The position numbers were made by a program, and so were the translations under genes. A stretch of DNA of 64,000 bases from Sipunculus nudus (taxonomy: Eukaryota; Annelida; Sipuncula; Golfingiida; Sipunculidae), in NCBI GenBank assembly GCA_026874595.1, contig CM049314.1, positions 30,205,729 through 30,269,728 on the forward strand, in the 5' to 3' direction. The notes beneath the pieces are model-generated. The model did no database searches. It saw only the letters and a list, made by a program, of their open reading frames with translations, and was not told the DNA's origin. Positions 12,501 to 62,848 of the stretch are shown here, piece after piece. Each line of letters opens with the position of its first letter. The stretch's first letter is position 1.

Positions 12501-15500
12501 TCAATGATATTTTCAGGATGGCTAGGGAATGATAAAAGGAAAAATCGATAAAATTTTTCGGGGTTATCCAGATCACCATCTTGATCCAGGAATTTTTAAA
12601 GGAAAAATGCTGCATTTCTGACAGTGCAATATGGGGGTAAGGAGCTGCCTTGGCAGAGGTCTGTGCTCTCTGAATGCTATTCTAGTTTTGATATTTTATT
12701 GTAGGTGTTTTCTCTGCCTTTACAAGTTACATTCTTAAGGTATCCAGGGTCAGCTTGATGCCGTCACTAGGAGCTGTGAGTATAGTTACAACATTTCCAT
12801 AATGTCACTATAAGTGGTAGGAATCAGTTGAAAATAAAATTTTATGATTGAAGGATAAAAAAAATTAGAGATGATCAATTATTAATAGATGTCTGTATTA
12901 CACTGAAATTTGCTGTATAGAATTATACTTAAAATATTGACTAAGTAAACTCAGTCTACTGTACATCACTCTGAAAGGTCAAGGTAATGGCCAGGTTGTT
13001 AACACATATATTTTTGCAAAACATTAAGATTTATTGTTGTTCACTGTTTTGTGCCCCTTCTTTCCAACAAAATAAAAATATTTTATTGGGATATTATGAT
13101 TATTTTGCAGGCATACATAATCATTTGTGATCAATAATGCAAAAATGCAACAATTTAATCTATTTTGCAAAAAAAATGACCAATCATTGATTTAATCAAC
13201 TAATTTGCACACCACTATTCACTACATCTGTCCATTTTTCTAGTATAAAAACTTTGGTAATTTACACTTTCCTACAAAATTGAGAAAAAGCAGAGTTAAT
13301 ATGTAGTCCAATGGATATGGTGTAAGACTTTGGAGCCAATGGACTGTAGTCCTTTTATTAGACTTTCTTGAGTCTAAAATAAAATGGTAGAGACTGGCTC
13401 TAATGTTTTAAAAATGATTATGATTTCTTAATTAATTCTGGTCCAGTTAATAAAATAAGAAAATCAGTAGGCTTATTTAGAACGTATTATTCTTTTCATT
13501 TTATCACATCCACTACCACTTTAAAATGTTGTCACAATTAGACTTTGAATCTATCCTGTATGAAAGTTATCACTACACAGTCTTTTTTTATGTTCTTTTG
13601 TGAGAATACTTCAATAAATTAAAACTTAAACATCATTTGTAATTAAAAATATATTATGCAGCTTGAACATTTGCATTAACCAAAGAGAGTTTACAGAAAC
13701 TTTAAATCTGCCTTTCATTTAATAACATTAGGCAAAACATATAAAATAACTCTAAGATCCAGAGACCTACATTTTATGAATTGCTTCAATGTATTTTATT
13801 TTCTTTTAGTCTGGTGCTATTATGGCAATCATTGGAGCAGTCTGCTGTTATTACCCAGAATCCCGTTTGTCTATCGCATTCGTGGACCAGCTAATTCCCC
13901 ACTCCTTCTCAGCGAAGCAGGTAGGACTACAGCTTAATAGACCTCAAGGGAAATAAATCCTCATTTTCCATGCTGCTTAAGGGTCGCAAAGTTAAAATAT
14001 CACTGCCTGTATATTACAATGCTGTTGTGTGCTTGCTGTTTCAATTAAACAAATTATTAATTATTGCAGATTCTAGCCTTTTATTCGGATTACTATCCTG
14101 TGAAGATAATTGCATGTAACTGCAGTATTTTACATATGTTCCTATTTAAGTGTATGATGACCAGTTCTTTATAGTGAGGTTTGCACAATTGTTACTTTTA
14201 TTCTAGATCTTATTTTGTAATCTTTCAAACTTTTTTAAGCAGTTAAAGTTTGTTGTCCACCACAACCTGTAGAATGCATATTGCTTGGATCAATGGCCCA
14301 CAGGCCTATGAATATCTATAAAATGATTGAGTAACTTGAGCACCCAAAGTAAATGAAAAATATTCTACCGTGCATATAAGGCCAAAAGGAAAACAGATAT
14401 GGTTCTCAGGCATTTTTTTTTTTTTTCAAAAAAATTTTTTTTACCTTTTTATTGTATGTTTTGATAAAAATCTCATATGATAAGGGAAAAGCATGATAAT
14501 AACAGGATCTTATCAAAATTTTATTATTTTATCTTCTTTAAAGATGAAAATAAAAATAAAATTTTTTTATGCGAGGGGTTAAAATTAACATGGGCGGTGC
14601 CTGAGAGCCATACCTTTTTTTTGCCTAATCTGTATCTGTGGTCTCCATAATTAATAATATCACATGAGGTAGAAGTACCCTTTATTCTGAAGCCACTCCT
14701 GTCTGACGAACAGCTATAAAGTATTACTTTTCTGTCTTTAGGCAGTAACAGGTCTGGTCATCTTTGACTCGCTGGGAGTTCTTCTGGGCTGGAGACTCTT
14801 TGACCATGCAGCTCATCTAGGAGGGATGCTGTTTGGTTTGTTAGTATATACTGTGGCTGGCTTCATATTTTTGAGGCTGAAATTATACAATTTCCTGATT
14901 TTGAAAGTTTTCTCGAGAGGTTTCATTTGCGCGAACACATCAGAATATATGAAATCTAAGTACTACAGTACTTGCATTTACTATAAAATAAGAATAAATC
15001 CCACAATAAGTCACTCATTTCCTTTATACTTATATTTATTGTATTATGACATAGGTCATAGTCGATGTTTTGACAATTATTATTGCCTGTTTGTATGAGC
15101 TGGTTCCCATACCATCCACAGATTATGTTTTTTATTAACAAACAACATTTTCAGAGGTGTGATAACTTATCCATTTGTGCTGATGCATCATACCTTTTTT
15201 TTTCTTAATATACTGGACATCTCTAATTCCTGAGGGATTCATCTGTGCAAATATTGTAAAATTTAATCCCTCATGAACAAAAAGGCAACCACAGTAACCA
15301 TTACCTGAATTTTATATAGAGAGAATTAGAAAAAAAATCAAAAGATAATATTAAATACAAATATATGTACTACACACATCAGTATTATATCTCACCAGGG
15401 TCCGACCAGTTTTCATAATTTGCAGTTTGTAATTCATATATTCTTCACTGTACTTTCACGTTGTATAATTTCTACTCTTCAGGTGGTATGCGACCTATGG

Positions 15501-20878: not shown

Positions 20879-23800
20879 TTTTTTTTTTTTTTTTTTTTTA
20901 GACCATATTTTATTAGATAAACAAAATTGCATTTACAGTAACATGCATAGGCATCACATTCACTATAGTCATGAACAATCGGATAAATCTAGTGATCACA
21001 AAAAAAAACAAAAAAAAAACTGTTTTGATTTTATAAATTACTGTATATAATAAATACACTGTACGACTCTTCGATGATTGCATCTAATTACTGAATATGC
21101 CATGCATCTTTGATTACTTGTATTTAAGTACCAATTCTTACATATCTCACTGGAATATTTGGTCAATTAATACATAAACAAAAATACATATATCCACAGT
21201 ACAAGACACAAATATACACATACTACAGTCTCTTTGATATTCTTGTGCGCATTCCTTCCGGCGTTACCCTGAAAATGTTTAGAAATTCGCAGTATTAATC
21301 ACACTTTTATCTTTGATGTTTTTTTGTACATTGAGAGGTATAAATATGGTTATATATACACATCATATAAATTAATCTATTCAGATACCTCATCAACAAG
21401 GACAATAATTTCAATCATTTGTGTTTTTATTCTCTACATGCAGTGTTAATCAGACATTTCAATGGAACCCATTTAGTGTCGTGTTTTATAAGTTTTCCGT
21501 TCTTGACTGCAATATACCTTTCTGTCTGAAAAATATCTAAAATAAAGCGCTTAACGTTCATCATGTCTGGTTTTTGTTTTCCACATCTACTGATATATAA
21601 ATATCTCTTTACTAACAAAGTAAAAAAATTTATCCACCCTTCTTCGTGACAACCAAAAATCATTTCCTCAACTGACAAATGAAATGATTGTTGGAGTGAA
21701 CCTTGTTTTTTCAATTCATTTAAAATTTCCTCCCATAGAAGCTTAACAAAAATACACTTCCAAAACAAATGTATCATAGTTTCCTTTTCAGATTTACAAA
21801 ATGTACACTCATCTGATTCGATTACGTTTATCTTATAGAGGAAAGTATTCAGAGATAATCTGTGATGAAGGGTCCTAAATTGAAAATATCTGAGTTTAAC
21901 TGATATTGTCGATTTAAATATATTTTTAAAACCATTATATATGTTTTCATCATCGCGTATGTTTAATTCTGATTTCCATTTTGCTATGCTGCTATGTGGA
22001 GATTCAATTTTTCCTTTTATTAATTCGATATAAATCTGATTTGTTACTCTTTTCTTTCTCTCCAGTCCGTCTGCCTTGTACGTATAAGTCTTGGTTGTAG
22101 TTGTACTTTTACTTTGTTTTATTATAGTTTTCCATGTATAAGGGATAGAGTTAAGCAGACCTTGATAGCTTAAAAAATCAATCTTAACATTATAATGAGA
22201 ACACATATCTGGATGGCTCATCCAAATCGAATCTGATCTTGTCTTACTCATTAAATCTGAGATATTTCTTATGCCTGAGTCGTACATATTCTTAAAAAAT
22301 ATTACTTGGCCGTTCCTTTTAATTTGAGAATTATACCACAGATACTGAGAAATTACGTCATCATATGTTTCAGGTTCACTATAGTTATAGATGCACCATG
22401 AGCGCAGAACATCATCCCAAAATTGAGAAGATCCACGCTCTAATTCTTTTCTATTTTCCACTGCTAAATTACAGTAAAACGATTGTTTGCCGAGCTTATA
22501 TTTGTTTACAGCTAACATTTTCCATGCATCGTTATCTGGTTTTGAAAGTAATCTATTCACCCAAGATATCTTAACTGCTGTATCATATGTATGCAAATGA
22601 ACCATCCCGAGTCCTCCCTTATTTACTGGTGCAATTATTACATTTCTTTTAATCAGTTCCCTTCCCTTGCCCCATATAAATTTATAGAGCATTTTTTCGA
22701 CTTGAATTATAATTTCTGAGGGAGGAGTTGGTAGGACTGACATTAAGTAGGTGAACTGAGAAATAATAAAACTTTTTATGATCACAACTCTACCCATAGG
22801 AGTTAGATTTCTCTGTGATCATAATGTTAAGGTTCTTTTGATTTTTTCCACAACTGGGAGAAAGTTAATATTTAAAATATTTTTCAAAGAAGGTGTAATA
22901 GAAACCCCAAGTAAGTTTATCGGTCCATCAGTCCATGAAAGTCCCAACTTTTCAACAAAATGTTTTTCTACATACTTTCCTCTTTTCATGGGCATAACAA
23001 CAGTTTTGTCTTTATTAATTTTTAATCCTGAAATTGTTTTGAATTCGTGGAAAATATCCATCACTTTATCGATACTTTTTACATCTTGGATGAAGAGGGC
23101 TGTGTCATCAGCATACTGAGTTATTTTATAAGTTTTATTTTCAACCTGAATACCTTTAATATCTTGAGTTGATCTTATCGCCTCAGCTAAAATTTCTACA
23201 CTTAATACAAAAAGATATGGAGAAAGTGGACAGCCCTGTCGTACCCCCCTTGTAACTGGAAAAAAATCTGAATTGAAGCCATTATTTAATATACAACTGT
23301 TTATATTGTTATAAAGAGTTTTTACCATTGTTATAATGCTAGAATTAAATTTCATTGTCCCTAAAGACTTGTAAATAAAATCCCATTCTAAAAAATCAAA
23401 AGCTTTTTCATAATCGATTGCCATTAAAAATGCCTTTTTATCATTATTACAAATGTGATCAATTAGTGTTAAAGTTTTATTAATATTTTCTCCAATGAAT
23501 CTTTCATTTATAAATCCTGTTTGGTCTTCATGAATTAATTCTGAAATTACTTGTTTTATCCTATTCGCTATAGTTTTTGCAATTATTTTATAATCCGTGT
23601 TGAGCAAAGTTAATGGTCTCCAATTTTTTAAATATTGATGATCTTTTCCTTTTTTCGGAAGCAACGTGATAATGCCTTGTCTTTGTGTAAATGATAAATT
23701 TCCGATTTGAAAACTATACCTGATACTATCTAAAAGATATTTCCGTAAATCCTGCCAGAAAAACTTGTAAAATTCTGCCGGAAGTCCATCACTTCCGGGT

Positions 23801-25191
23801 GTCTTTCCATTTTTTAGCGATTTTAAGCTGTCAAGTAATTCTTGTTCTGTGAGATAGTCTGGCCAAGATTGTTCAGGTATACTTCTAACTTGTATATTGT
23901 GTTTATTTATGAATTCCCTAAGTTTGTCTATATCATGCGACGGGTCTGATTTGTAAAGTTTTTCAAAGAATGATTTCTCCGATTTTAATATTTCTGATTT
24001 ATCTTTGACGATGTCACCATTTACGTTGAGTTTATTAATAACTTTCTTATTATAATTACGTTTTTCCAAATTCAAAAAATATTTTGTGGATTTTTCGCCC
24101 TCCTCTAACCATCTGGCTTTGTTCCTTACCATGGCACCCTTTGTTTTATCTTCAATGAGTTTGTTCAACTTATCTTCGCTTTCTTTAATTTTTTTATCAT
24201 TATCTTCTTGATTTATTAAGTTTTTTCTTAAAAATTCTAAGTCTTTCTCTATATTTGTTATCTCATCCCTTATAGTTTTTTGTCGTATTTTACTGTGGCA
24301 TATACAGGTTCTTCTTATGGTCATTTTAATTGTTTCCCACAGTAATGACGGGTCTGTTCCTTTATTATCAGTTACTGTGTCAGATATACACGTCTCTATT
24401 TTACTCACAAGCTCCGTATCGTTAAGTAATGATGTGTTAAGTTTCCAAAATCCTGGACCACGTTTATTCTGTTGGGTTTTAATACTTATATCTATCGCTG
24501 AATGATCACTTTTATACCCCGTTATTATATTTGACGTTTTAACTGATTCTAATAATCCTCTTGAAAGTAAGAAAAAATCTATTCTACTGGCTGTAAAAAA
24601 CGGATTAGAACGTGACCATGTGTATTGTTTTCTTTTAGGATTAAGGTACCGCCAAATATCTATAAAATCTAATTCATCAACCCATTCATTTATTAGTGTA
24701 GAAACTCGGTTTGGCCGAGTGTCAGATATATTTGTTTTATCAAGGCTAGGTTTAAGAACTATATTCCAGTCTCCGCCTAGTAAATTATTCTCGTTACTTT
24801 TGCTCTCAATTTGATTAAAGATTTTAGAAAAAAACAGTTCATTTGGTGTATTCGGACCATATATATTGCTTAGGTTTAATCTCACATCATCTATAGTTAT
24901 ATCAAGTACAATAATTCTCCCTTCCTCATCCTTAAATATATCATGTATTTCATGTGATAAATTGTTCTTTATTAGTATCGCTACTCCCCTAGAATTGTGA
25001 CTTCCATGATTGAATATTACTTTATGTCCCCATTCGGATCTCCATTGTACTGCAGTTTCTGCTGAACTGTGAGTTTCTTGCAACAAAATTATATCGTGTT
25101 TTTTATTCTGGAACCAGTAGAACAGTTGCCTACGTTTAGCAGTATTTCTAAGACCTCTAACATTAAGTGACATTATGTTTACAACACACAT
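20879..25191 (-). mobile_element. L1/Tx1-like LINE retrotransposon, minus strand
   Basis: The element reads leftwards: ORF2 at 25191-21427, a 3' untranslated part (21426-20901), then a poly-A tail seen as a T-run on the plus strand at about 20879-20900. ORF2 encodes APE-type endonuclease, reverse transcriptase and a C-terminal CCHC motif, the order typical of the L1/Tx1 group. A possible ORF1 remnant lies at 25878-26058. The target duplication was not found, so the 5' border is not fixed. Confidence 0.88.
21427..25191 (-). pseudogene. LINE ORF2 (endonuclease-reverse transcriptase) with one in-frame stop
   Basis: Reads from ATG at 25191 for 790 codons to a TGA at 22821-22819, then on in the same frame to 21427, about 1254 codons overall. 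Endonuclease hallmarks in order: SLNVRGLRN at the start, LLQETHS, GDWN and YKSDHSAID. Reverse-transcriptase hallmarks: YLKNWRPLTLLNTDYKI, DQTGFINERFIGENI, FLMAIDYEKAFD, GVRQGCPLSPYLF and the catalytic QYADDTALFI. Downstream of the stop are the L1-group thumb region and CTFCKSEKETMIHLFWKC, a CCHC knuckle. The stop lies in TLTL*SQRNLTPMGR, at a place where relatives usually have Trp. No frameshift was seen, so the copy is young or constrained; the stop would separate the catalytic core from the C-terminal domain. Confidence 0.9.
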
Positions 25192-25877
25192 AAAATTATG
25201 TAATCGAGAATGGTTTCATTTATATTTCTCAAAGTTATTAAAATGATTTTACCGATAACATACATTTCTGCCACCCTGCACCACAGTGATATTTCATATA
25301 ACAATATAATAGAATAATTTGGACGTGTTGGTGATGTAGAGGTGTCTGACATTAAGTTCAACCCATCGGTGACACGGGTATTTGGTTGCTGTCCTTGTGT
25401 AACGCGCAGACACTCTAGTGTTGAAATAAACAAAAGTTTAACTGTTTGTTTTACAGCAAATGAATACAGTAACATCAGCCATAATCGCAATATTAATGTA
25501 TACTTATCTTTCCCAGAATACGCTAAACTTGAATGGAAACAATACATACTTACAAATGTAACAGAAGTACCAGCACACAATACACACGCCAACAAGCTGG
25601 CGCTAAAAAAGAGTAGCAATGTTCGGTACAGACCAACTAACAAAACAATGTGGGGCCAACACGGGCCCCGCTGGTCCATTTTACCAGTCGGGTCGTATTT
25701 GGAGCCGCGCTCCAGAGGACCAGTCCTATTGTGTCACACAGATTTTAAAGGAATTAGTTCATGTCGTCATCATGGAGCAGGATCTCTGCTGAATGAAAGG
25801 GGCTCTAGGCTTGTTGCGTCACGTATTTGTAGTTGTATGCATGCAACAGGCCACATAACTTGGAAGATTATAAAATC

Positions 25878-38624: not shown

Positions 38625-41600
38625 TTAATAAATGTCCTTCGGCCAGAGTGCATCAATAACATATTTTACAGATTTAAAGAAGTAAGCTGCAGCGCGTAAG
38701 AAATCCTTTCCGTCATCTTCTCCTAACATCGGGATTTCAGATCCCAACAAGCATCCTACAAAAGAGTTATCGTCTAGTCCATTAAAGTAGGCATTACTCG
38801 CTATAGGAAGCTTGTCACAAATATATTTCCACAGTTCCTCCCTTTCGGGTGTAACAGTCTTACATGAAACAACAACGTGTAATACAGGGTTACTCAATAA
38901 CTTTCCACAAAATGACATAATATCAGACTTCCGGCTGAGTCGAACAAACTATAGTGGGCCATAGTCTAACCATATAATAAAAGGATGGGAGAGATCCAGT
39001 ATAATCGTTTGCTGTATACCATAATCGTGAAGGCGCAAAACAACTTGTCTGAACCCTAGAGTACATTATAAAGTCGTCAGATTCACTTATTCTCTCATTA
39101 AAATAAAATTTCTTCCCTTTGAACAATTGCAGCGGTCACCTCCTTCTTCCACATCTGCTTGTTCAAGATGCAACTCTGCTTATAAAAATTAATCATGTGA
39201 CACTCAAGATTATAATTTCCTAATATATCAGTAATATCTGCCACAAAACCAATATTATATGAGGTTTCTTTTTTTCTATAGCTATGTATACGTTCCCAAA
39301 GTATCCGAGATGATATTGAATTGTTTTAATAACATAACCTACCAAAAAAATAATAGTTTTAACCTATCTAATATTGCTGAGAACCTTGGCATGCCTAGCA
39401 TTCCGAGTGCTATATCGCTGCGTACACGAAAAGGGAGACCCTGGGCTTTCTTAATATTAAAATGATGCATTCGTTCAAGAGCCGTGTATTCTTGTAAAGA
39501 AAGACCATTCCATAATTCTGCCCCATAAAGCGCACCTGGCAGTACTACCGCTTTATAGAGAGGGGCCTTTGTAAGAGGATTAAATCCACCAGCCCGTACT
39601 TCCGAGGGTGCGAGAGAAAGAAAAGATCCTTTGGCCTTTCGACAGGCATCACGTGTTCTCTCCACTGACGACAGGGAGGCCGATAATACAATACCCAAGT
39701 GTTTATGAGATCTTACATCTTCCATGAGAGAGTCACCTAAATACCATACTCTGTTTTCCTACGATTAAAGGTCTGAATTGATTCCCCAAAAACCATGATT
39801 ACAGATTTTCTAGAATTATATGAAAATCACCACTCCCTGGAATAATCATAACATATATTTATCATTTTTTGAAGACCTCTAGCTAGGTAACAGTGAAATC
39901 AGAGCCAAGTCATCAGCTTGTGTTGGAGATCCTGCGTAAATAGGGCCAATACAGGCACCATAACCACTGTGTCTCAGCTTTACCAAAAGAACATTTAAAT
40001 AGAGCATATAAAACCATGGTGATAATACGCCTCCCTGGCGTACCGATTGTTCAATAGTAAACCACTTGCTGATTACGCCATCCTGCGCGACATCGCATTG
40101 CATATTAGAATAAGAATTTCTTAGTACTCTCCACAAGCTTCCATTAATCCCCATTTCGTACAATTTTATAAACAAACCCTTATGCCAAACAAAATCAAAT
40201 GCTTTAGAAATATCCAAATAGCAAACATACACTTTAGATTGTCTTTCGAGGTTGTGATTTATACATTCAGACAAATGAAATGACGCATTTACTACACCGT
40301 TCCCTTTTTGGAAAGCGCATTGCATTTCATCAGGAAAAGATATATTGCAAAATTTTAGATAATTTTCTAGCCTTGCTAATATGACCTTCTCTAACAGCTT
40401 ATATACACTAGATAACAACGTAATCCCTCTATAATTATCAATGCTCGATTGACTTTTCCTTTGATTTTTTATAAGAATCACAACTATACCTTTATTCATC
40501 TCTATAGGTACCTTTCCAACGTCGAGAATTAAATTAAATAAGATTGTTATATGCTCAGCTAAAGCTTTCCCCCCATATTATAAATGTTCGTTGGAAATAT
40601 TATCTAAACCGCAAGTTTTACCGCTTTTCAGGCTTCTTATAGCCTTTTCAACTTCTTCCACAGAGAAAGAAACGTCAAGTATATTACCAGTGACGTCATG
40701 TGAATTACGGGAGTAATCACTCATCTTGTCATCAATCACTCTTTTAAAATCCTCCTTATAATTATCCGAGACAGAGTAGGAGTACAACCTCGAAAAGTGT
40801 TTAGCCCATTCTTCAGCTTTCGTTTCGGGATCATTAGTCACTTTACCGTTAAAATTAATAGCTACATTTTGACTTGTATTCGAGCGACGTCGGCGAAATC
40901 TAGACCAAAATTTGTTAAAATCGACCTCAGCACATTTATCTGTTTCTTCAAAAAATTCCCGCTCTCTACGCAGGTGATATTCTCTCATCTGTCTCCTTAA
41001 CTCTCGTTTAGCGCTTTTATAAGCGACAAACGAATCAGATTCACATCCCCTCGGCCTGTTTTCCCCTGTCCATAATTCTCTCGCCTTTAACATCTTCTTA
41101 TGGAGTGAACGCAAGCTTTCGTTCCAACTGGGTCTAATGTAGGGTTTATATTTGCGACAAGGGACAATTTTTTTAGAGGCTTCGTTTAAAATACTAACAA
41201 TCAACCTAAAATATACACTTATGAGATCAGAATCGTTCACATTTTCTTCATTAACTGTAAGGGAGTTCAGTTTATCTGTAATAATATTTTTAAAAAGTGA
41301 AACAGCCGACACCTGGCCTTTAAATGTTTCTCAGTTATAACCCATTGGATAAGATGACCTAGCGATAAAAGGACGCGTTGTGAGGTTTAAACATAGAAGA
41401 ACTGGAACATGATCTGAAACATTCCCGGGTTCAACTATGATTTTACAAGTTGACACATCTGGTAACAGCTCGTGTTGGACCATAATATGGTCTATAAGGG
41501 ACCTATTTTCGCCATTTTGGTACGGATCAAAGGAAAACTTAGGTCCTTTACAAAAAATGTCTGAACACATAATGATATCATATCAAGTTCTGTTAACAGT

Positions 41601-42133
41601 TTTGCAATAATTGACTTTTATGAGTTAATTTTCCAGAACATTTCGAACCACTAATTTCACAGTTAAAATCACCGGCTATAATAACTTCGCCGTCCAGTGA
41701 ATACCGAAAATATAGCTCATAGAGTTCACCAATACACTGTGTACAAATTCAGGTCATAGTTTGAACTTGGGAGATACACGCAAATAACGTGTAAAGGTGT
41801 TCTTCCATTAATATTTAAACGGACCCCAATAATACGATCACTTTCCATATCACCAAGCAAGGTTATAGCACTCTTTAAACTCCGTTTACAGAGAATGGCA
41901 ACACCTGCCTTGCCCCTGCGAAACGATTCAAATGGGTCGAGTGTTGAATCAGCTTTAGCAAAAGCAAAATATCCGCAGTCTAAGGAATCCAGGAAGTTCA
42001 AATTATCATAAAATAACCAATGCTTTGTTAGGTATAGTATATCTATGTCGTACCTATTCAAGATATCAGAGATAAAGATACAGGAACTGAAAGCTCCTCT
42101 TGCATGAAAGAAACTTATCGTTAATTTTTCCAT
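38625..42133 (-). pseudogene. LINE ORF2 remnant: endonuclease and reverse transcriptase
   Basis: Open pieces in order: 42133-41726 (endonuclease start, SFFHARG..., GKAGVAILCKR), 41570-41331 (endonuclease end with VSDHVPVLL), 41312-40578 (start of the reverse transcriptase, SLKSGKTCGLDNISNEHL), 40499-39879 (NYRGITLLSSVYKLLEK, CYLDISKAFDFVWHKG, RQGGVLSPWFYMLYLN, catalytic TQADDLALIS), 39725-39339 (HKHLGIVLSASL, LYGAELWNG) and 39126-38625 (C-terminal part, ALWPKDIY). At least four disruptions separate them. The missing part of the endonuclease (about 41725-41571) is present but out of frame. Confidence 0.85.
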
Positions 42134-42249
42134 ATCAGGAAGTATTCCCAGTTTTCTATCTATGTGATTTGAAATTTAGACTAGTGTAGTTACAAAGGCT
42201 AATATACCTGTCAAAATATCTCTTACAACTAAATCAGGATTTTACCCTC

Positions 42250-43677
42250 TGGACCCATTTTCTAGCATTAACCCCCCTGGGCCAAAAAACGCTCTGTCAG
42301 CAGGTTTTCACAACCTTTTGTAGGGACTTTCAAGTAGCATCCTTTGTACCCAGACCTCTTACTTGGCAATATAACCAAATCAACTATACGGCAATTTCTA
42401 CGCTTAATGTCATCAGAAATTAAATGATGATTCACATGGTACTCAATATTTCCAAAATAGAGCTCGGTATATAACGCTTGATCAGAGTCCATTTGCTTCT
42501 GTTTTTTTTTTGTGGATGACTTTTCAGTGTCGGTACGTTCATTTCCATCAATTTTATGTCTCTCAACAGTGGCATCCTGACCTTCAGTTTTGTCGATTTC
42601 TCTGCTCCAGTCACTGTGTATGCGAGCAGACAGGGATTCATCAGGCGGATGACCACTCAGGGCATGTGCATACGGTCGTTCTTGGTTAGACGACTTTTTA
42701 ACGTGACGCTGAAGCTCAGACCTCAAGAAAGTGACACTAGCAGACAGAGATGGAATTTGTTCCTCCAATGTATTCAGGTTCTCCTCTACTGACCTCACAA
42801 GCCCTTTTAGTCTTTTACCTTCACGCTTTAAGGCCAAAAGATCCTCCAAAATCTCTTCAGTTTTTTACTTTAATTCAGATTGTGCTTGTTTCATGGTCTT
42901 ATTAATAGACTCCTGTCCACCTAAGGCCTGTTTTTGCATTGCGATGGCATCTTGTAACGAAGACATCACACTGTTTGTTCTGTCCATGTGCTGTGACACC
43001 ATCATTTCTAATTGACCAATATCATCTCTATATATTTGGATTTTTTCAAGAATGTATTTCTGACCAATCTTATTTGCCTGTTTCAAACTGATTACCTCTG
43101 CTTTGACCTCCTCTAGATTATTCTTTACAAAGGAACAAAGGTCGTTTTGATTAGTGAGCGGCACAGTGCTATCATCTACCGATGAGGTCGGCACTTTAGA
43201 AGAGAATGTTACACAGACAGGCTGCGCGTTAGACTTGTTATGACCACTCAACACCTCACAGACATCAGTGGCTAGGCCACCGTTTATAAAACACACCAGA
43301 GTATAACTATCCTTAGCCAGTTTCGAGCTATAGCTCTCCCCATTTTTATTGCAGGATTTTTGTCTCTTAACCAGCTGGCCACCTGGAAAATTTTGCAAAG
43401 AGCTAGCCACCATATAGAGTTCATTTCGAATTGCATCCAACTGCCCAGGGCCAAAATCACTCTCCGACAATAGCCGCTGTATAAAAGTATCATATGGCAC
43501 ACTATGAGCCCATTCTATCAGTTTGTTTGCCGAAGAAGTAATATTATCATCACTTATACAGTCATTGCTGACATAGGTGTTAATGCTATCATCATTTAGA
43601 AGCTTCAATGAATCGCCAACCAATGCAGAGAGACATCTATCAGACATTTCTTCCATGTAAACAAAAAAGACCTTCAC
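42250..43677 (-). pseudogene. LINE ORF1 remnant, coiled-coil type
   Basis: From ATG 43677 for 270 codons to a TAA at 42867-42865, then on in the same frame to about 42268, where a T-run (CGTTTTTTGG) marks a likely one-base slip before VNARKWVQR. The protein has a helical, Glu/Lys/Gln-rich middle (VKAEVISLKQANK; QMESVEENLNTLE-like) suited to a coiled coil, then a C-terminal half. No CCHC knuckle is evident. Consistent with an RNA-binding ORF1. Confidence 0.65.
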
Positions 43678-43935
43678 CTTTAATTTGTCACCAGTGTTCC
43701 GCTGTTCCGCTTGACCAACTCCAAATTGAGCCCGACCGCATGTCCAATATATATCTGTGCAAAAACTGGTGAATTTGCTTACATTCTGTCTTCAACAGGT
43801 CATAATTTGAAAACTGCGAGCATGAATTTTCCCAGTATCTTCTCAAAAGATCCAGATAATAAAGATAAATAGTCCAAATTACGCAAAATTAGCGGAGCTC
43901 GTATAACCTGTGGCCGCTTAGCCAGCGCCATCTAC

Positions 43936-53689: not shown

Positions 53690-56600
53690 ATGGTTTGTTC
53701 GTGCAGATGCAAGTGTAGCCGGGCATGCATGCGAGCATTTTTCAGGAAAAATGCCTTGCTGTTCGCCAACATGGCTGCCATCGTACTCGGCTTGGCTCTC
53801 GGGTTTGGTCTGCGCCGGGTGGAGCTGAGCTCGAACGCCATCGTGTGGATCGGACTGTGGGGAGAATTGTTCATCCGCATGATCAAAATGCTCATATTAC
53901 CAATCATTGTCGTTAATCTGATTTTGGGTATGTTGCAAATTAATATGTTGGCCATTATTTATTTTACCATAACAGGTGTACAATAAGACGTGTGTTTTCT
54001 GCATTTACTGAAAACCTTGAGCATAGGAAAAGAATAGTTTGTGATGAACCTCGCCGTTTAATTAAAAAAATTGTTTGAGCATCAGTACAGAGAAATTGCA
54101 GTATATGAATAATGTATGCCTAATATATCTTATTTAAGTGTACAAGGGTTGCATGTAATAGACACATTAGTCCTAGCTAGTCTTAAAACAAGGATAAATG
54201 AGAGTAAAGATTTATATTAAATATAAAATTAATGTTGTTGTAAATAATAATAATAATAATAATAATAATTATGAGTAAATGTAAAATAGTATTATTTTAA
54301 TATTGACTAAACGGCTCCATTTATAAAGCAAAATGTATTGGAACCATCAAATCAATATCGGTAACTAAACGACCAGAAGACTTGCCGGAAGTAGAAATTA
54401 AAAAGACAGATAAACTGACAGACAGATAGGGGAACATGTAGAAATGTTCAAATAAAAAAAAATTCTTGGACAAACTGGAAAAAAACTGCACATGTAGTTA
54501 TGCTGATTCTATGTTACAGACACATGGACGTTCAGAATAAAACGAGGTTAAGGTCAAATCTTGTTATCTGGAATGACAAAGCGAATAAAATGAGTTACAG
54601 TTTATGTAGTACGACCATTTTGAGGAAAATAAAACATTTAGGATCTTGATGACCTTGACCTTTGACCAATCATGACAAAAACAAAAAGACCTCGTGAGAC
54701 AATAAACACGTACCAGCTGTCGTTTCAAAACGATTGCAGGGGACTAGATTCAGAGATAGAGAAAACTCCATGTTGTCAGCTTCAACAAGTTTAACTCTTA
54801 AGTATGTCACCATGATAATGGCTTAAGGACCTTGCAAGAATAGGCCAGATTCAGACGAAGCAATAAAATTGTATATTGAAAAAACATTAAGGTAAAAATT
54901 CCATGAATTAAAAAAATGCGTAACCACGGTTGTCGAGTGTTTCTAGGAATAAACACATGGCTCCTCGCTTCAGATTCTGAAATAAAATTAATGACATTGT
55001 TTATAGTTTTGAAGATATGACACAATGTTATGTTCAATTTTTCAGCTGCAGCACCAACTGGACACTATTTTTTCCAAAAATGAAAAATTGTTTTCGATAT
55101 ATATTGAATACCATAAAAATATCAGTTTAATAACAATTACTGCAAAACTGCAGCCTCTAGCCCATCATTAAGTGAAGTCTCGCACAGTCTCGTTTGACGA
55201 GAAGCAATGCGAGCTTTTGCGAGTCGTAAAATAAAATAATTTAAAACTCAGTGATAGCTATCTGATGAAAATAAAATTATTTTCTCACTAGCTTTGAAAA
55301 AACGTTATAAATTTCCAAGATAAGGGTAACAATTTTCAAATTTCATGATATTTTTGCCACAGAAAGAATATTCATGGAATGACGAATAAAATGAGTTACA
55401 GATTATATAGGTACGATCATATTTGTCAAAGCTATAAAGATATACGTTTTTTTAGGTTTTGGTTGGTGACCCTTACCTTGACCATTGACTAATTTTGACC
55501 AAAAACAACAGGCTTCCAGAAGAAACAGATTAATAATATCTGTGTAAGTTCAAAATGATTGCTTCAAAATTGTGGCCTGTAGAGAGCTGACAGACAGACA
55601 CACAAACAACAAACATACGGAACTGACCAACATGTTTGCCAATCCTTTTATTCCGGCAAGAGAAAACTAACAGCACCATTGACATTTTGTATTCTACCTC
55701 TGTTTTCTTATAATATTCACTATTACCTGCTTCCAGGTGTGTCCACGATGGAAGCTAAGGTAGGCAGCCGCTTGGGGGCGTACAGCATGGCGTACATCGT
55801 GCTGACGAACCTTCTCGGTTGCTGTATTGGTGTTGCTGTTGCGATGATACTTAAGCCAGGGGCTGGGCTGGCGGAATCCAGCAGCGTGCTCCAAACAGAC
55901 AAGTCAGACTATTCCACGGTATTCGCTGATCTCATAAGGTCAGTGTCTTCCCAGATTCAGTTTCACTACAAGAAATCTTTTAGTGTGTCTGAGGCGACGA
56001 TTGGATCTATATACGTGAATATTGGATTGTTCCCTTTCGTTTATCGTATCGTTAAAGTATTAAACAAATTATAAAAAAAAATAATTGGAGGGAAAAACGC
56101 ACTGGGATACTTAAATATACCTGCTCGGTGGATATATTTTCTGGTCGATATTTTATCATTATTATTGAAGGTGTATCATGTCTACCGTCATGAACGTATA
56201 TATACTAGTACATCATAATACTCTCCGGGACCTGCCTTTTGCCTTTCTCGACTACGCGCCTCACGCAGGTCTTCCGTTATCCTTTATTATAACCGCTGCT
56301 TTGCATAGCAATATTCTTTGGTGTGATTCTTGGCGGAGTTTCAGAATCGTCGTAATTAGACCAACGACAGCGTGCATAAATTTGGAGCTGGATACATAAT
56401 GCGCTAACCCGTTGTCATTGGTCAGATGGTGGAACCCAGAGAATCTTTCTGTGCAAACAGCGGTTCAAACAAAGGAGATCTAAGACGACTGCAGTGTGAG
56501 GAGCGTTCCCCCTGGACCTGCAGTGTTCCAATTCCGCTCATTTATATGTTATACTTTTTTGTCCCGGCAGGAATTTGTTCCCGGACAACCTCATCAAGGC

Positions 56601-59600
56601 GACATTCGAGCAAGTAAAGACCGTGAAAACAGAGTCAGTCTCGATAGGAAACATTACCAATGTCACAACAGTCAAAACGGAGCTCGGCGTTCAGACGGGG
56701 ACTAATGTACTTGGTAAATTAGCCGTTAACCCTCAGTTAATTATGTTAAGGTGCGCAGGCGTTTATTTATTAACATAAACATGTAAATAATACAAACCCT
56801 TTTGATCGTTAGATTACCATTCAATTTGTTCATTGTGCCATTTTACCTGTGTTTAAACACTTCTTCCTAGAAATAACGAGAGACGTATTGGGCCGTAATG
56901 ACAGAACCTTTATGACATAGCAATGGGCCACGTAAAAGGCCCCATCTACATATGTGACAGAATATACGTTAACGGAAATATAACATGCATCTCATGAAGA
57001 CATACAAACAAGAACAAAATATAATCTTAGCAAAAAAAAAAAACCAAACAAAAAACAAAAAACGGTGCGTCCACCCGATCGTAACAGATGTCAAAAGGTG
57101 AGGGAGGGAGGGTTATTACGGCAGTGCATCGTGCGAATGGCGCTGGCGAAAGGTCCCCGTGTGCGATATTTAGTTCGCCTTACGTAATCGATGTCACGGT
57201 CAGTGGCTCGAGAGGGGTGGTTTCTCGTGTACATTATGAATGCGCCGTTTTAACCGCTATTAACCTGCAGTTAATTGCTACTTAAACGCTTCTTCTTAGA
57301 AATAACGAGATACGTATTGGGCCGTAATGACAGAACCTTTATAACATAGCAACGGGCCACGTAAAAGGCCCAAGGTCATCACGCTTATGCTGTTCCAACA
57401 ACTTATCTTGTGCCTTTAATAGATACTATTTTAAAGAGTGTTCTGATACGCGCCCAAATTAGACCAGAATTGCCGTATTTGTCAAATATAGGTATAATTA
57501 AACGCAAAGAATTCCATTGATGTGTGAGAAAAAGACCCTGTTAAACTTGTAATTAGTTCATAACCTTTTGCATCGTTTTTTTTTTTATAATGAATGTAGA
57601 GCAAAATAATCTTTGTCAACAAATTAGTAGATGGCATGAAACAATGAAGCCATAATAAATAATAAATCCTGTCCCTGGACAATACTCAAAGCAGAAACTT
57701 TAAACTGTAGCAGTGGTTTCGTTATTTCACGTGTCTTCAACCATCGGTTACATTGCCATAAGGAAAAATGTAAGATTTGTCTAAAGTATACCTTTTATTG
57801 GTCTGAAGTCTGACGATGTTTAGTATATAGCCCCGCAAAGCGCCGTGTATAAAAATTTGCGTGTGATTCATACAATATGTGATGGTGTTTACTATAGCCG
57901 TAGGTTATTTATTTATTTATAACAACATTTTACAGGGTAGCCTGTACCAGAAGAATACTTCTGTTGTAAGCAGGTCCCTGATCAATCTATGTTATAAAAA
58001 AGAAGACATTTACGCATCAGGTTGCCCCGTCTTTTTAATATCTAACTGCCGTTTATTCCAAGTTTGACAGTGTTCACTGTAGCGGCAGAATACCTATGAT
58101 AAGTTTATATAAAGCGTATAGGTTTTCAGCAATAACTAAATTGTTCAATTTTTTGTATTTATACTTGGTTTATTCAAGGTCTAACGATGGTAAGAATAGA
58201 AGCGGAGGGGTTCTTATATGAAGACTTGTATCAATTTGCGTTTGCATGGTTTTAGTTTAGGCGTGACGATATTAAGTGTGGCTGTGGGCTGCTCCTTGTT
58301 CAATATTTTCATTTGGTTTTTTTATGGTTTGAAATATTTTAGTGTCGCCGTGAGATTGTCCATATTTAGACAATTATTTTTTGATTATTTAAGGCCTGAC
58401 GGTGTTTTAGTATAGCCGAGGGATCCGCCATGTTTTATAACATTTACGTTTGGTTTATTTTAGGTCTGACGGTGTTTAGTATAGCCGCGGGGTGCGCAGT
58501 GTTTGCCGTCGGGGAGACAGCCAAGCCACTCATCCGGCTACTTGAGGCCATCAACGCCATCGTCTTCTGGTTAATGAACCTTGTCATGTGGTATGTCCCT
58601 TATCTTAATGATCATTCCTATTAATACTTAAAACGTATTGTAATAGCACAGACCTAGTAAACAACACAATGGAATGAAATGGCTATACAAAAAATCGTGA
58701 TTTTTAAGAGAGAGGACAGGTCTTTGATATGTATGCCTAATATAAAATGATTGCTAATTTCAGATTAAACTGTAAACTGAAAACATGAGGTGTGGTAGGC
58801 GCATCGTAAAAGAATAGGGTTCATACGCCCTTCTATGACGGGACATAATATGGTAAACCCACGGTCCGTTCGTCCGTTAACTTTTATTGGCGCCGCGATA
58901 GCTTACCGGGGCTTCAGTGGATTTTCACGAAACGCACCATAACTAGTCTTCTAATATATTATCTCGCTCGAGTTCGATTATGGGCAAAATCCACGCATAA
59001 TAAATAAGGTCAGTGTTCCTTGGGCTACTGTGTGGCCTCGCATCGATATCTTACGAAGAATAAGATGGATTTTCATTAAACTCAACAGAAATATTATCCT
59101 TTAAAATATCTCACACAAGTTCGATTTCCAGCGAATTCCACGCATATGTAATCACCAGACACAGATGGCACCATGGTTACTTACAAAAAATCCTATGGAT
59201 TTTCATGAAAGTCATTATACGTATTTACATATTTCTCACCTCAATTGAATTCTCAGCTAAATTCACGCATAATTAATGAGGTCAAATGTAACCAGATACG
59301 CTACGGGCGTATTATGCCCCATTTTCGGCGCTCTTGTTTTTTTTTAATGGGAGCAAGGTAAAGTGGAATAGGAATTTGAGAAGGCGCTTCATTTACAATA
59401 TCTAAGGTATGCCATGATTCAAACTCAGGGTAAAGCTTTGTTTCCATGTGCGCGTATATGTGTGAAAAATTGCTCATATGATATTGACGTAACTGTTATG
59501 TTCCATGTGTCCATCAGCGTATATGCATGTGTACGTACACATGCTTGAAAATCGCCACAGAATCCAATTTTACGCATAGGTTCTGCGTGAACTTTGGGAT

Positions 59601-62600
59601 TTGGTGTAAAAAGACGTCACTTCGCCATCTTATTTTTGGAAGACCTGCTAGATCCACTGTACAAATATACGTCTGTCAGTTTACGCATATGTACGAACTT
59701 ACAAGCACAATCATGGAAACACATTTTATTCACGCATATTCTCACAAACGCATATACGAGCACATTGAAACACGCATTAATATGGTAATCCACGCAGTTA
59801 ATATGAAACAAACCGATATACAACACGCACTTTTTATCTTCAGGTACTCACCACTTGGCATTACAAGTCTAGTGGCGGCCTCTATCATTAAAATTGACAA
59901 TCTGGAGCTTGCGATGGCGTCTTTGGGCATGTTTATACTGGCCACACTGATAGGGGTGGCTGTCCATGTGTTCGTCTTCATGCATCCCCTTTTGTTCCTG
60001 TTTATACGGAGAAACCCGTACAAGATCAATTTACGGATATTAGATGGCGTGCTCGCGGCCTTGTCACCCCCAGCTGGGTAAGTTCAATATCACTATGCGG
60101 CGTCCAGCAAAGTATAAGGGACAAGTTGAGTGAAACCGAGTTTACATGATTTGGGTTTTTAATCCAAAAGCACCTGGGATGAGCATGACATCCGTTAGGC
60201 ATGGCAAATACTAATCTGATTCAGTAACCAAATAATATTTATAATAACTATTATTATATTTATTATTATTAATTTTATTATTATTATTATTATTATAAAT
60301 GTTAGTAGTAGTAGAAGTAGCAGTTGCAGTTGTTGACGTTTTAGTAGCAGTATTAATTACTTTCAGCATCAACAATTGTATTCCAAATATTTCATGTTAT
60401 ATAAAACACATCAGAGATGGAGCGATGCCGTGCTTCTGTCAGGATTGTAATTATTATTGTTGTTATTATCATTATTATTATTACATGTATGTTATTTATA
60501 CCCCACATACTCCATTAATATTTCCCAATCTTTCTGAAGTGCTGATATCGGGTATTATTATAATTATTATTATTATTATTATCATCATCATCATTAAAAC
60601 TGTTATTTACGTTTCCCTTTCTCTCTCCAATTATAGAATTGTAGCGATGCCGTACTTCTTTCGGACATTAGAAGACAAAGAGCAAGTTGACACGCGAGTG
60701 ACCAAGTTTTACCTCCCGATCTCCCACACGCTCAACAGGGACACATCGCTCATGTTTATATGCGTGGCCGCCATCTTCTGCGCGCAGACGTTCAGCGTCA
60801 GCATCAACGCAGGAACTCTGGTTGTTATGATGTAGGTTAGCAAAGTCGGCTGATGATTTATTGAAGTGCTCACTTGCGGAACGTTTGCCGGAGTTGAATG
60901 TTTATTTATGAGGCCTTGGCGCTATTCTTAACTCAGTATCATTTGTTTTACTTTATTTTGCCTGGTCTGGCTATATTATATTCCTCCAATGCGTGAACAT
61001 AAAGATAGTAAATTATGAATATTCAAATTCTTTCCAAATTTCTCCAAGATCCGCATTTGGGCTTTGAATACTTGTCTTACATGCCTGGTTGCTTCAGAAT
61101 GTTCTGGCGAATTTTGATAGCGTTGTCGCATAAAAAATAATATAAAAAAGGATTTAGTATTGTTACGGTTACCATACGATTCTTCACCGATCTTAACAAA
61201 TGTAAGCACCAATCTGAGAAAACCAAAATCATTTTTGTCGACGCTAATACATGCATGTATATATCAGTCAGTGCTGTACCCTTTCGACCATGTGTGCCAT
61301 AATTTTTTCTTGTTATGATAATCTGTGCAATTCAGAATACTTAAGACATATTGCGGCAGTATTATTTTGAATGATCCTTTAAGATTTAGTTGAGAATACC
61401 AGGCAGAGAAAACTGTAAAAATCCACCATCCAAAAATCGTTCAAAACTGGATAAAAAATATATAAAATTAAAATAACGCCATACACTTTTCCGAAATAAT
61501 AGCGCAAAATAATGTAAGAGTGGAGAAGCCATATGTATGGAGAAGCCATTGTGGGTGAACTTACTCTGAATTAAGAGGAGTCATATCTTTTTTTTACAAT
61601 TTCCAGTTTCCTGGCCACAGCGCTGTCGACTGCCATAGCTGCTGTTCCGAGCTCCAGTGTGGTGCTGTTGTTGATGTTATCAGGCACCATCAACGTGCCA
61701 GTTGCTGAAAGGCTGGGCCTCATTATGGCCGTAGAATGGGTCAAGTAAGTTACACCAGTCTTAAGATGGCATCCCTGGGTAAATCTCCTAAACTTAAAAT
61801 CAAGCACAAAGTCGTATAAAATAAATGAGAGGACCATAAAATATAAATTTTCTATTTATCTTGTTTAAAAATTAAATCTATATTTTTATTAAATCAAATT
61901 TTCAAAGTTCAATTTAAGAAATATGAACGAGGTTTTAAACTGAGGGGGTTTTGCAAGGGATGCTACCAGGTAATTGATGATGAGGTAGTTTACGGTCTCG
62001 GGGTTCGGCAGCGACATTGGTATTTACAAAGTAGAAAGCCAAGCCGACTCCTGCACAAACGAATTAAGTTTATGTAATGTTGTGACTCTTGTAATGGTTT
62101 CAGCGTAAAGAGTATAGGAAAATTAAAGAAAATATATAGCTGTGCCGTTTTAATATTTTTATTTGGAGACATTGTACTAAAATTATGCCAAAATTAAGAA
62201 TTGTCTGATTTATACTTATTGAGCTATAATATTGACATGCTGCTAAAGTAAATTCAGCTGCATTCACGTTAAATGCAAAAAGGACGATCTCGGAATTAGC
62301 GGTATTATCAGACCAACAAACGGGTGTCGCGTGTTTAAAATCTGGAGCTGGATGCAAATTGCGATACCTGGTTACACATCTCTGCTCTGTGCTCTGTGCC
62401 TCTGTTACCCAGAGTACCTTACTGTACTAAGTAGCGTTTTCATATTGGAGTTAATGAATACTGTCTGCGTATTGAAATTATATCCCTAATAATAACAAAG
62501 TTATAATAATAACGAATAAAACAGTTTCTCAAGCAGACACTGTACTAATGCAACAAAGAGCTTATTTTGGCCTTGAAATTTTGCGAAAATGTATTTTATC

Positions 62601-62848
62601 TTCAATTTGATTTAAATGTTTTGCTATAGAAATTCACGAGCATTCTTATTTCGTTATACATTGTTTTATATTTTATTTTTAGTGACCGACTGAGGACGAT
62701 CGGTAACGTAATCAGTATCGCCTTCGGATGTTTAATTGTGGAGAAATTAGTAAAAAATGAACTGGACAAGGAGGGCCAACCGGATGATGTCCATAAAACG
62801 CCAAAAGATGAAGAGAACGGACTTCTCACTAACGTCACAAACGTCTGA
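53690..62848 (+). CDS. SLC1 family (excitatory amino acid transporter-like), 8 exons, divergent
   Basis: Plasma-membrane carrier family that couples glutamate or neutral amino acid uptake to sodium. Exons: 53690-53927, 55737-55938, 56571-56713, 58464-58590, 59844-60077, 60637-60831, 61607-61744, 62683-62848. All phases agree; 1443 nt, 480 aa (EAATs usually 500-570). Family landmarks: GELFIRMIKMLILPIIVVNL (TM2), GVSTMEAKVGSRLG, AFDLIR-like VFADLIRNLFPDNL, NITNVT glycosylation sequons (TM4 loop), WLMNLVMWYSPLGI, RVTKFYLPISHTLN (TM7), VEWVNDRLRTIGNV (TM8), VEKLVKNEL. Changed motifs: HP1 serines become SPPAG (311-315), NMDGT becomes NRDTS (348-352), the AGIP of HP2 becomes AAVPSSS (391-397), and the TM8 Asp two residues past N-V-x becomes Ile438; Asp427, Arg430 and Asn434 stay. 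N-terminus has five Cys in 13 residues. Family sure; substrate unknown. Confidence 0.93.
54000..55736 (+). other. SLC1 intron 1
   Basis: AT-rich, with an (AAT)9 run at 54246-54270 and two related segments at about 54560-54720 and 55360-55570 (GAATGACnAAnnGAATAAAATGAGTTACAG, then CCTTGACCATTGAC). No exon that fits the gene. Confidence 0.6.
56852..57372 (+). repeat. Direct repeat pair in SLC1 intron 3 (about 90 bp each)
   Basis: 56852-56942 and 57282-57371 share ACTTCTTCnTAGAAATAACGAGA, GTATTGGGCCGTAATGACAG, AACCTTTATnACATAGCAA and GGGCCACGTAAAAGGCCC, differing at only a few positions, 430 bp apart. An A-run (57032-57060) lies between them. No coding frame. Confidence 0.8.
57800..58463 (+). 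repeat. Degenerate tandem copies of an intron-exon junction (SLC1 exon 4 start)
   Basis: The real exon start, AG|GTCTGACGGTGTTTAGTATAGCC at 58464, has copies at 58394 (GCCTGACGGTGTTTTAGTATAGCC), 58327, 58261, 58179, 58062, about 57880 and 57808. Steps are 66-70 bp near the exon and longer further out. Most are preceded by TTTATT- or TTTAG-like acceptor sequence. Two copies still encode the exon's first 14 residues in altered form: GVTILSVAVGCSLF (58261) and GLKYFSVAVRLSIF (58327) against GLTVFSIAAGCAVF. The others are broken by indels or stops. Confidence 0.8.
58855..59340. repeat. Dispersed repeat with GGATTTTCAC-GAAA units (SLC1 intron 4)
   Basis: Three loose units near 58915, 59065 and 59195 share ATGGATTTTCATnAAA, then TCTCnCnCnAGTTCGATT, then CnnATTCCACGCATAAT. 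Its beginning is an inverted relative of 36890-36985. It ends with CGGGCGTATTATGCCCCATTTTCGGCGCTCTTG. Confidence 0.55.
60240..60600. repeat. Trinucleotide (ATT)n-rich segment, SLC1 intron 5
   Basis: Runs of TTATTA at 60245-60297, 60450-60485 and 60560-60590, with (GTA/GCA)n at 60302-60330. They lie upstream of the exon 6 acceptor TTATAG|A at 60636/60637. Confidence 0.8.

Follow-up and report, generated by a model that had tools for sequence, protein, structure and literature searches.

An EAAT-type SLC1 paralogue with altered ion sites and a spared scaffold, possibly an ion-uncoupled carrier

We found that the window (the whole 64-kb stretch of DNA analysed) holds an SLC1 gene on the forward strand (53690-62848). 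We tentatively propose, as the best explanation of its residues, that it encodes a maintained, fast-evolved EAAT-type SLC1 paralogue that would work as a facilitator or exchanger of an acidic substrate, uncoupled from Na+, H+ and K+. The sequence supports a maintained paralogue whose transport mechanism is altered, and the protein may carry its cargo without sodium, or carry nothing. The sodium coupling of SLC1 carriers is an open mechanistic question, approached through mutants and reconstructed bacterial ancestors (PMC8431971, PMC12668577). A natural EAAT-type protein that lacks two sodium-site residues and the proton/K+ switch while keeping the TM8 ligands and the scaffold would test what binding, coupling and the anion leak need; should it carry nothing, it would be an SLC1 pseudotransporter retained in some other role.

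The sequence-only reading had described eight exons in phase with no stop, and this was reproduced: the exons join in phase with zero internal stops, all seven introns have GT-AG borders, and the coding sequence is 1443 bases including the stop, giving a product of 480 residues. The exons, all on the + strand, are as follows.

53690..53927, +, exon 1: residues 1-79, TM1-TM2
55737..55938, +, exon 2: up to residue 146, TM3
56571..56713, +, exon 3: up to residue 194, TM3-TM4 loop with NIT and NVT glycosylation sequons
58464..58590, +, exon 4: up to residue 236, TM4-TM5
59844..60077, +, exon 5: up to residue 314, TM5, TM6 and HP1a
60637..60831, +, exon 6: up to residue 379, HP1b and TM7
61607..61744, +, exon 7: up to residue 425, HP2
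62683..62848, +, exon 8: residues 426-480, TM8 and C-terminus, stop TGA at 62846-62848

An acceptor-like TTTCAG stands directly 5' of exon 1, so there may be a further, non-coding exon at the 5' end. The product matches the PF00375 (SLC1 / SDF) profile over residues 26-447 (E 6.1e-75; 253.1 bits against a cut-off of 27.9), and its best relatives of solved structure are EAAT1 constructs, some of which by name include ASCT2 pieces, and EAAT2, each 35% identical to it; the EAAT1 reference used throughout is a crystallisation construct. With these as tblastn queries against the window, all eight exons were matched, each at E 0.006 or better, and no match below E 0.4 lay outside them. A search of all six frames of the window with five composed patterns for canonical SLC1 motifs gave one chance match, on the other strand at 50134, and no canonical motif in any other frame of the strand that carries the gene. 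Because neither tblastn nor the patterns found a canonical exon, the odd motifs described below are not due to a wrong choice of exons within the window. No second SLC1 copy was found in the 64-kb window, and neither protein search nor alignment found SLC1 relatives in viral contigs.

The sites that bear on transport, with GltPh numbering for comparison, are the following.

60064..60077, + (Ile316 in exon 6): HP1 tip SPPA(G), with Pro313, Ala314, Gly315 and Ile316 at GltPh Arg276, Ser277, Ser278 and Ser279
60734..60748, +: NRDTS in place of NMDGT, residues 348-352, with Asn and Asp kept, Gly changed to Thr351 and Thr to Ser352
62684..62707, +: in TM8, unchanged substrate ligands Asp427, Arg430, Thr431 and Asn434 at GltPh Asp394, Arg397, Thr398 and Asn401, together with Arg428, also unchanged
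62717..62719 (ATC), +: Ile438 at the Na1 aspartate (GltPh Asp405), by alignment

The motifs and residues quoted earlier (SPPAG, NRDTS, AAVPSSS and Ile438, with Asp427, Arg430 and Asn434 present) are thus correct. The HP1 motif SPPAG comprises residues 311-315 and straddles the exon 5/exon 6 boundary; at GltPh Ser277 and Ser278, where this protein has Ala314 and Gly315, all 31 references have Ser or Thr, and Ser278 is a ligand of the substrate main-chain carboxylate (PMC10160106). The earlier use of SSSAT as the normal HP1 motif went too far, since this motif is not universal: EAAT2 reads ASSAGT. The Na2 methionine (GltPh Met311) is Arg349 (codon AGG, 60737-60739), and the YE proton/K+ switch in TM7 reads Phe355-Ile356, with Ile356 in place of the glutamate. 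Three of the four Na3 side chains are kept, namely Thr103 (Thr92), Asn348 (Asn310) and Asp350 (Asp312), and the fourth, Ser93, a Ser/Thr position, is Asn104. Further substitutions are Ser344, Thr351 and Ser352 for GltPh Gly306, Gly313 and Thr314. In HP2, AAVPSSS from residue 391 is a mild change, and AAVPS is also found in a bacterial relative (L010). To call most transport motifs rewritten is therefore too strong: the HP1 serines, Arg349, Ile438 and Ile356 are changes of that kind, but the TM8 ligands are kept, Na3 is mostly kept and HP2 is mildly altered.

The roles of these sites follow passages of PMC5110648, PMC3302783 and PMC10160106. The expectation that changes at such places stop or uncouple transport holds in part. 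Alanine mutants of Asn310 or Asp312 in GltPh show no uptake (PMC3302783), but both residues are kept here, and GltTk Met314 changed to Cys or Ser retains 3:1 coupling with impaired cooperativity and turnover (PMC8431971). In EAATs, E374Q is reported to eliminate both coupling to K+ and concentrative transport (PMC10160106). An arginine at the Na2 methionine does not appear among the tests in the passages of SLC1 mutant literature consulted.

We placed the protein in a maximum-likelihood tree of 36 rows, where it groups with EAAT1 and EAAT2, the two animal references (100/98), on a branch of 2.14 against 0.21 and 0.37 for these two. Without L031-L034, the four other longest rows, the EAAT grouping has support of 100/97 but the branching order inside it is not resolved, and in both trees the software flags the protein as a long row of unsure placement. 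Among the 31 references, Met311 and Asp405 occur together in 18 and are both missing from 12, with Asp alone in one (L031) and Met alone in none; 11 of the 12 double losers sit in one clade, so that the association reflects few independent events. All three proton-coupling marks of prokaryotic carriers, namely a hydrophobic residue at Thr92, Met311Leu and Asp405Asn (PMC12668577), are carried by 8 of these 12. The tree suggests that the present protein lost both residues within the EAAT lineage. An Arg or Lys at Met311 is found in 3 of the 31 references, each without at least one Na+-ligand acid: L006 (Clostridium) has Lys, with Asn310Ser, Asp312Ser and Asp405Asn; L034 (Burkholderia stagnalis) has Arg, with Asp405Ser and Ser279Glu; and L031 (Sphingobium) has Arg, with Asn310Phe and Asp312Ala. 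From their residues, we regard these three as candidate sodium-uncoupled carriers, and we know of no transport test of any of them.

The changes are unevenly spread between the two domains, whose borders we drew from the alignment. At the 75% conservation level with 18 references, 17 of 35 conserved transport-domain sites and none of 18 scaffold sites are broken (Fisher 0.0002); with all 31 references the counts are 17/36 and 0/12 (Fisher 0.004). At the 85% level they are 7/15 and 0/9 with 18 references (P 0.022) and 9/21 and 0/9 with 31 (P 0.029). The contrast is thus significant in all four of these settings (0.0002 to 0.029), and in a preliminary 15-reference peptide-masked set it falls short of significance at a threshold of 0.7 (P 0.18) and reaches it at 0.8 (0.022) and 0.85 (0.019). 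The 18-reference set, free of loci fetched by peptide, consists of the EAAT1 and EAAT2 rows and 16 prokaryotic proteins from whole-protein tblastn of plasmids, chosen from the matches listed (2 among 12 and 14 among 40); the 31-reference count masks the two scaffold peptides used for fetching. Left out of the counts were L018 and L019 (partial), L002, L004, L011 and L016 (at least 85% identical to another row), and, for the conserved sites, the reconstructed ancestor 9bgz. When each of the 18 references was left out in turn and scored, broken transport-domain sites ranged from 0/35 to 21/40. L031 breaks 21/40 transport and 4/17 scaffold sites, and L033 breaks 18/38 and 6/17. L033 is annotated as SstT, which we take to be a working carrier. 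Since L031 and L033 break as many transport-domain sites, the number of broken sites alone is no mark of uncoupling.

In the ion-uncoupled carrier that we favour, the elevator would still run with an acidic amino acid or dicarboxylate bound, perhaps with the anion leak kept, and Arg349 would do the job of Na+ at Na2. In passages of PMC5110648 and PMC12668577, the methionine of empty GltTk, and of GltPh in one of its empty states, faces lipid, and in the outward-facing form of GltPh it holds HP2 open; as Na1 and Na3 fill, the NMD loop moves into the pocket, and the energy difference between the two NMD states has been proposed to set Na+ coupling. A charged Arg349 should disfavour the lipid-exposed state, which would promote the high-affinity form of the pocket even when no Na+ is bound. 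Ile438 would stand in place of the neutralised Asp-Na+ pair and Ile356 in place of the protonated Glu, so that the net charge of the pocket would resemble that of the loaded carrier. Cycling of the EAAT type is unlikely, given the reported effect of E374Q in EAATs. We favour a facilitator or exchanger over a non-transporter because of this NMD-loop and charge mechanism together with the unlikelihood of EAAT-type cycling. Of the earlier suggestions, the use of another substrate or ion fits best, in the form of ion uncoupling. The full form of the proposal, in which Arg349 would be a tethered cation at Na2 that holds the high-affinity pocket and yields a Na+-, H+- and K+-independent carrier for an acidic substrate, convergent with the Arg/Lys-bearing bacterial relatives, we consider unlikely.

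A sodium-uncoupled reconstructed ancestor described in PMC12668577 supports the uncoupled reading, and in an extant Bacillota clade of that source the whole set of Na+ residues is present in 16% of sequences and the complete H+ signature in none. Against this reading, the uncoupling described there was allosteric at first and left the Na+ sites untouched, with losses of their residues following later (PMC12668577). Arg349, as a second charge nearby, might also repel Arg430, and the carboxylate ligand Ser278 is Gly315. Because Na3 is largely kept, one Na+ might still couple. Six of the seven ligand residues are kept, against 20 of 35 conserved transport sites overall (P 0.098), and at this P we do not claim selective retention of the ligands. 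The loss of Ser278 and the unproved retention of the ligands (P 0.098) make our preference for transport over non-transport a tentative one.

Comparison with known systems places the protein close to animal EAATs (the EAAT1 construct and EAAT2), with which it shares full-length alignment, 35% identity, the 100/98 grouping and the TM8 Asp-Arg-Arg-Thr-Asn, but from which it differs in lacking the Na1 Asp, the Na2 Met, the YE switch and the HP1 serines. ASCT1 and ASCT2, like this protein, have no glutamate at the switch position. In them, Ser or Cys replaces the arginine of TM8 (PMC3737229), whereas Arg430 is kept here. The Ext-H proton-coupled prokaryotic SDF carriers have also lost both Met311 and Asp405, and their signature consists of a hydrophobic residue at Thr92, Met311Leu, Asp405Asn and a putative protonation site, Ser279Glu (PMC12668577); unlike them, the protein has Thr103 at 92, Ile316 rather than Glu at 279, and Arg349 and Ile438 rather than Leu and Asn, and it groups with EAATs. 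As in the Ext-Int clade of Bacillota (PMC12668577), both the Na+ and the H+ signature are incomplete in it, but that clade is bacterial; from its place in the tree (93/86, or 96/85 without L031-L034), we would guess that L006 belongs to Ext-Int. Mosquito CuqDCT and AeaDCT are likewise invertebrate EAAT-like paralogues with altered motifs, but Asp444 and Thr448 are changed there, and their equivalents Asp427 and Thr431 are kept here (PMC3737229).

The main rival reading, which we think less likely, is that the protein folds and trimerises and carries no substrate, serving as an amino-acid receptor, as a substrate-independent anion channel or as a subunit that restrains normal EAATs in mixed trimers. 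The loss of HP1 Ser277 and Ser278, of the Na1 Asp and of the YE switch beside an unbroken scaffold (0/18) would fit such a protein, but a carrier that binds nothing would have no need of Asp427, Arg430, Thr431, Asn434, Asn348 and Asp350 (whose retention is not significant, P 0.098), and L033, annotated SstT, is equally changed. In favour of this reading, the EAAT TM8 arginine at GltPh Met395, which serves anion selectivity (PMC8763778), is kept as Arg428, and a TM5 proline is kept as P240 (EAAT1 P290 by own numbering); against it, EAAT1 Ser103, a site tied to anion permeation, is Asn76 by own numbering. The earlier suggestion of a non-transporting protein thus does not follow from the sequence alone, given the equal change in L033 (18/38) and the retained acidic-substrate ligands.

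That the protein is a Na+-coupled carrier of the usual kind, which has changed its substrate and tolerates the motif changes, seems improbable to us. It would account for the retention of the Na3 residues Thr103, Asn348 and Asp350, and it has precedents in the GltTk Met314 mutants that keep 3:1 coupling (PMC8431971) and in mosquito CuqDCT, which shows that changes in TM8 can turn an EAAT-like carrier into one for dicarboxylates (PMC3737229). However, the Na1 acid and the methionine are otherwise lost together in 12 of the 31 references, all prokaryotic, eight of them with the three-site proton-coupled signature.

A recent loss of function, or a silent gene whose frame is open by chance, would agree with the long branch and is, in our view, quite improbable. 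When the gene was tested as a pseudogene, stops, frameshifts and broken splice sites were absent from its eight exons and the borders of its seven introns. If the whole gene had drifted like the conserved transport-domain sites, 10.1 stops would be expected and none was observed (P(0)=4e-5), the depth of drift being taken from the 15 of 35 transport-domain sites changed in the 15-reference peptide-masked set. The zero stops argue that the gene as a whole has not drifted neutrally to such a depth, and are compatible with a recent loss of function. The G+C content of the coding sequence is 0.51, with 0.50/0.39/0.62 at codon positions 1/2/3, and 156 of 247 four-fold sites (63%) are G or C against 0.35 (35%) in introns, which makes decay of the whole gene unlikely. 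Together with the seven intact introns and the spared scaffold, these observations argue against loss. The earlier impression that the gene is maintained is thus supported by changes lying in the transport domain with the scaffold spared, by third positions of a live gene and by the absence of some ten expected stops.

An error in the gene model or assembly, with the true transcript using other exons that bear canonical motifs, could draw on the HP1 motif spanning an exon boundary, but we consider it very improbable, as neither tblastn nor the patterns revealed a canonical exon in the window and, for all six AGs in the acceptor copies of intron 3, a stop comes ahead of the donor.

Of these copies, decayed versions of the exon 4 acceptor and exon 4 start, intron 3 holds seven at 57793-58463, 63-76% identical over 41 bases; spacing between the starts of the final three and of the true site is 66-70 bases. 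Such copies were found neither in 200 simulated introns nor on the + strand of window positions 1-53000. Two of the seven have no AG at the acceptor position, and the remaining five contain six AGs from which a stop is always reached before the donor, so only the real exon 4 acceptor is usable.

Searches of the open literature, judged by titles and abstract openings, listed no paper on an animal SLC1 protein with these changes, which is no proof that none is in print. Elsewhere in the window, a LINE-type retrotransposon made up of two stop-free pieces lies at 21430-25215 on the - strand and has endonuclease, reverse transcriptase and zf-RVT domains, and there is probably a second retrotransposon at 39342-43791, also on the - strand, in several stop-free pieces with a reverse transcriptase domain in 39882-40577. 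A 40-residue stretch at 14742-14861 on the + strand gives a sub-threshold rhomboid match (E 0.01) and presumably resembles the end of PARL. Finally, a BED zinc-finger match at 645-1067 on the - strand (E 8e-6) is perhaps a fragment of a DNA transposon.
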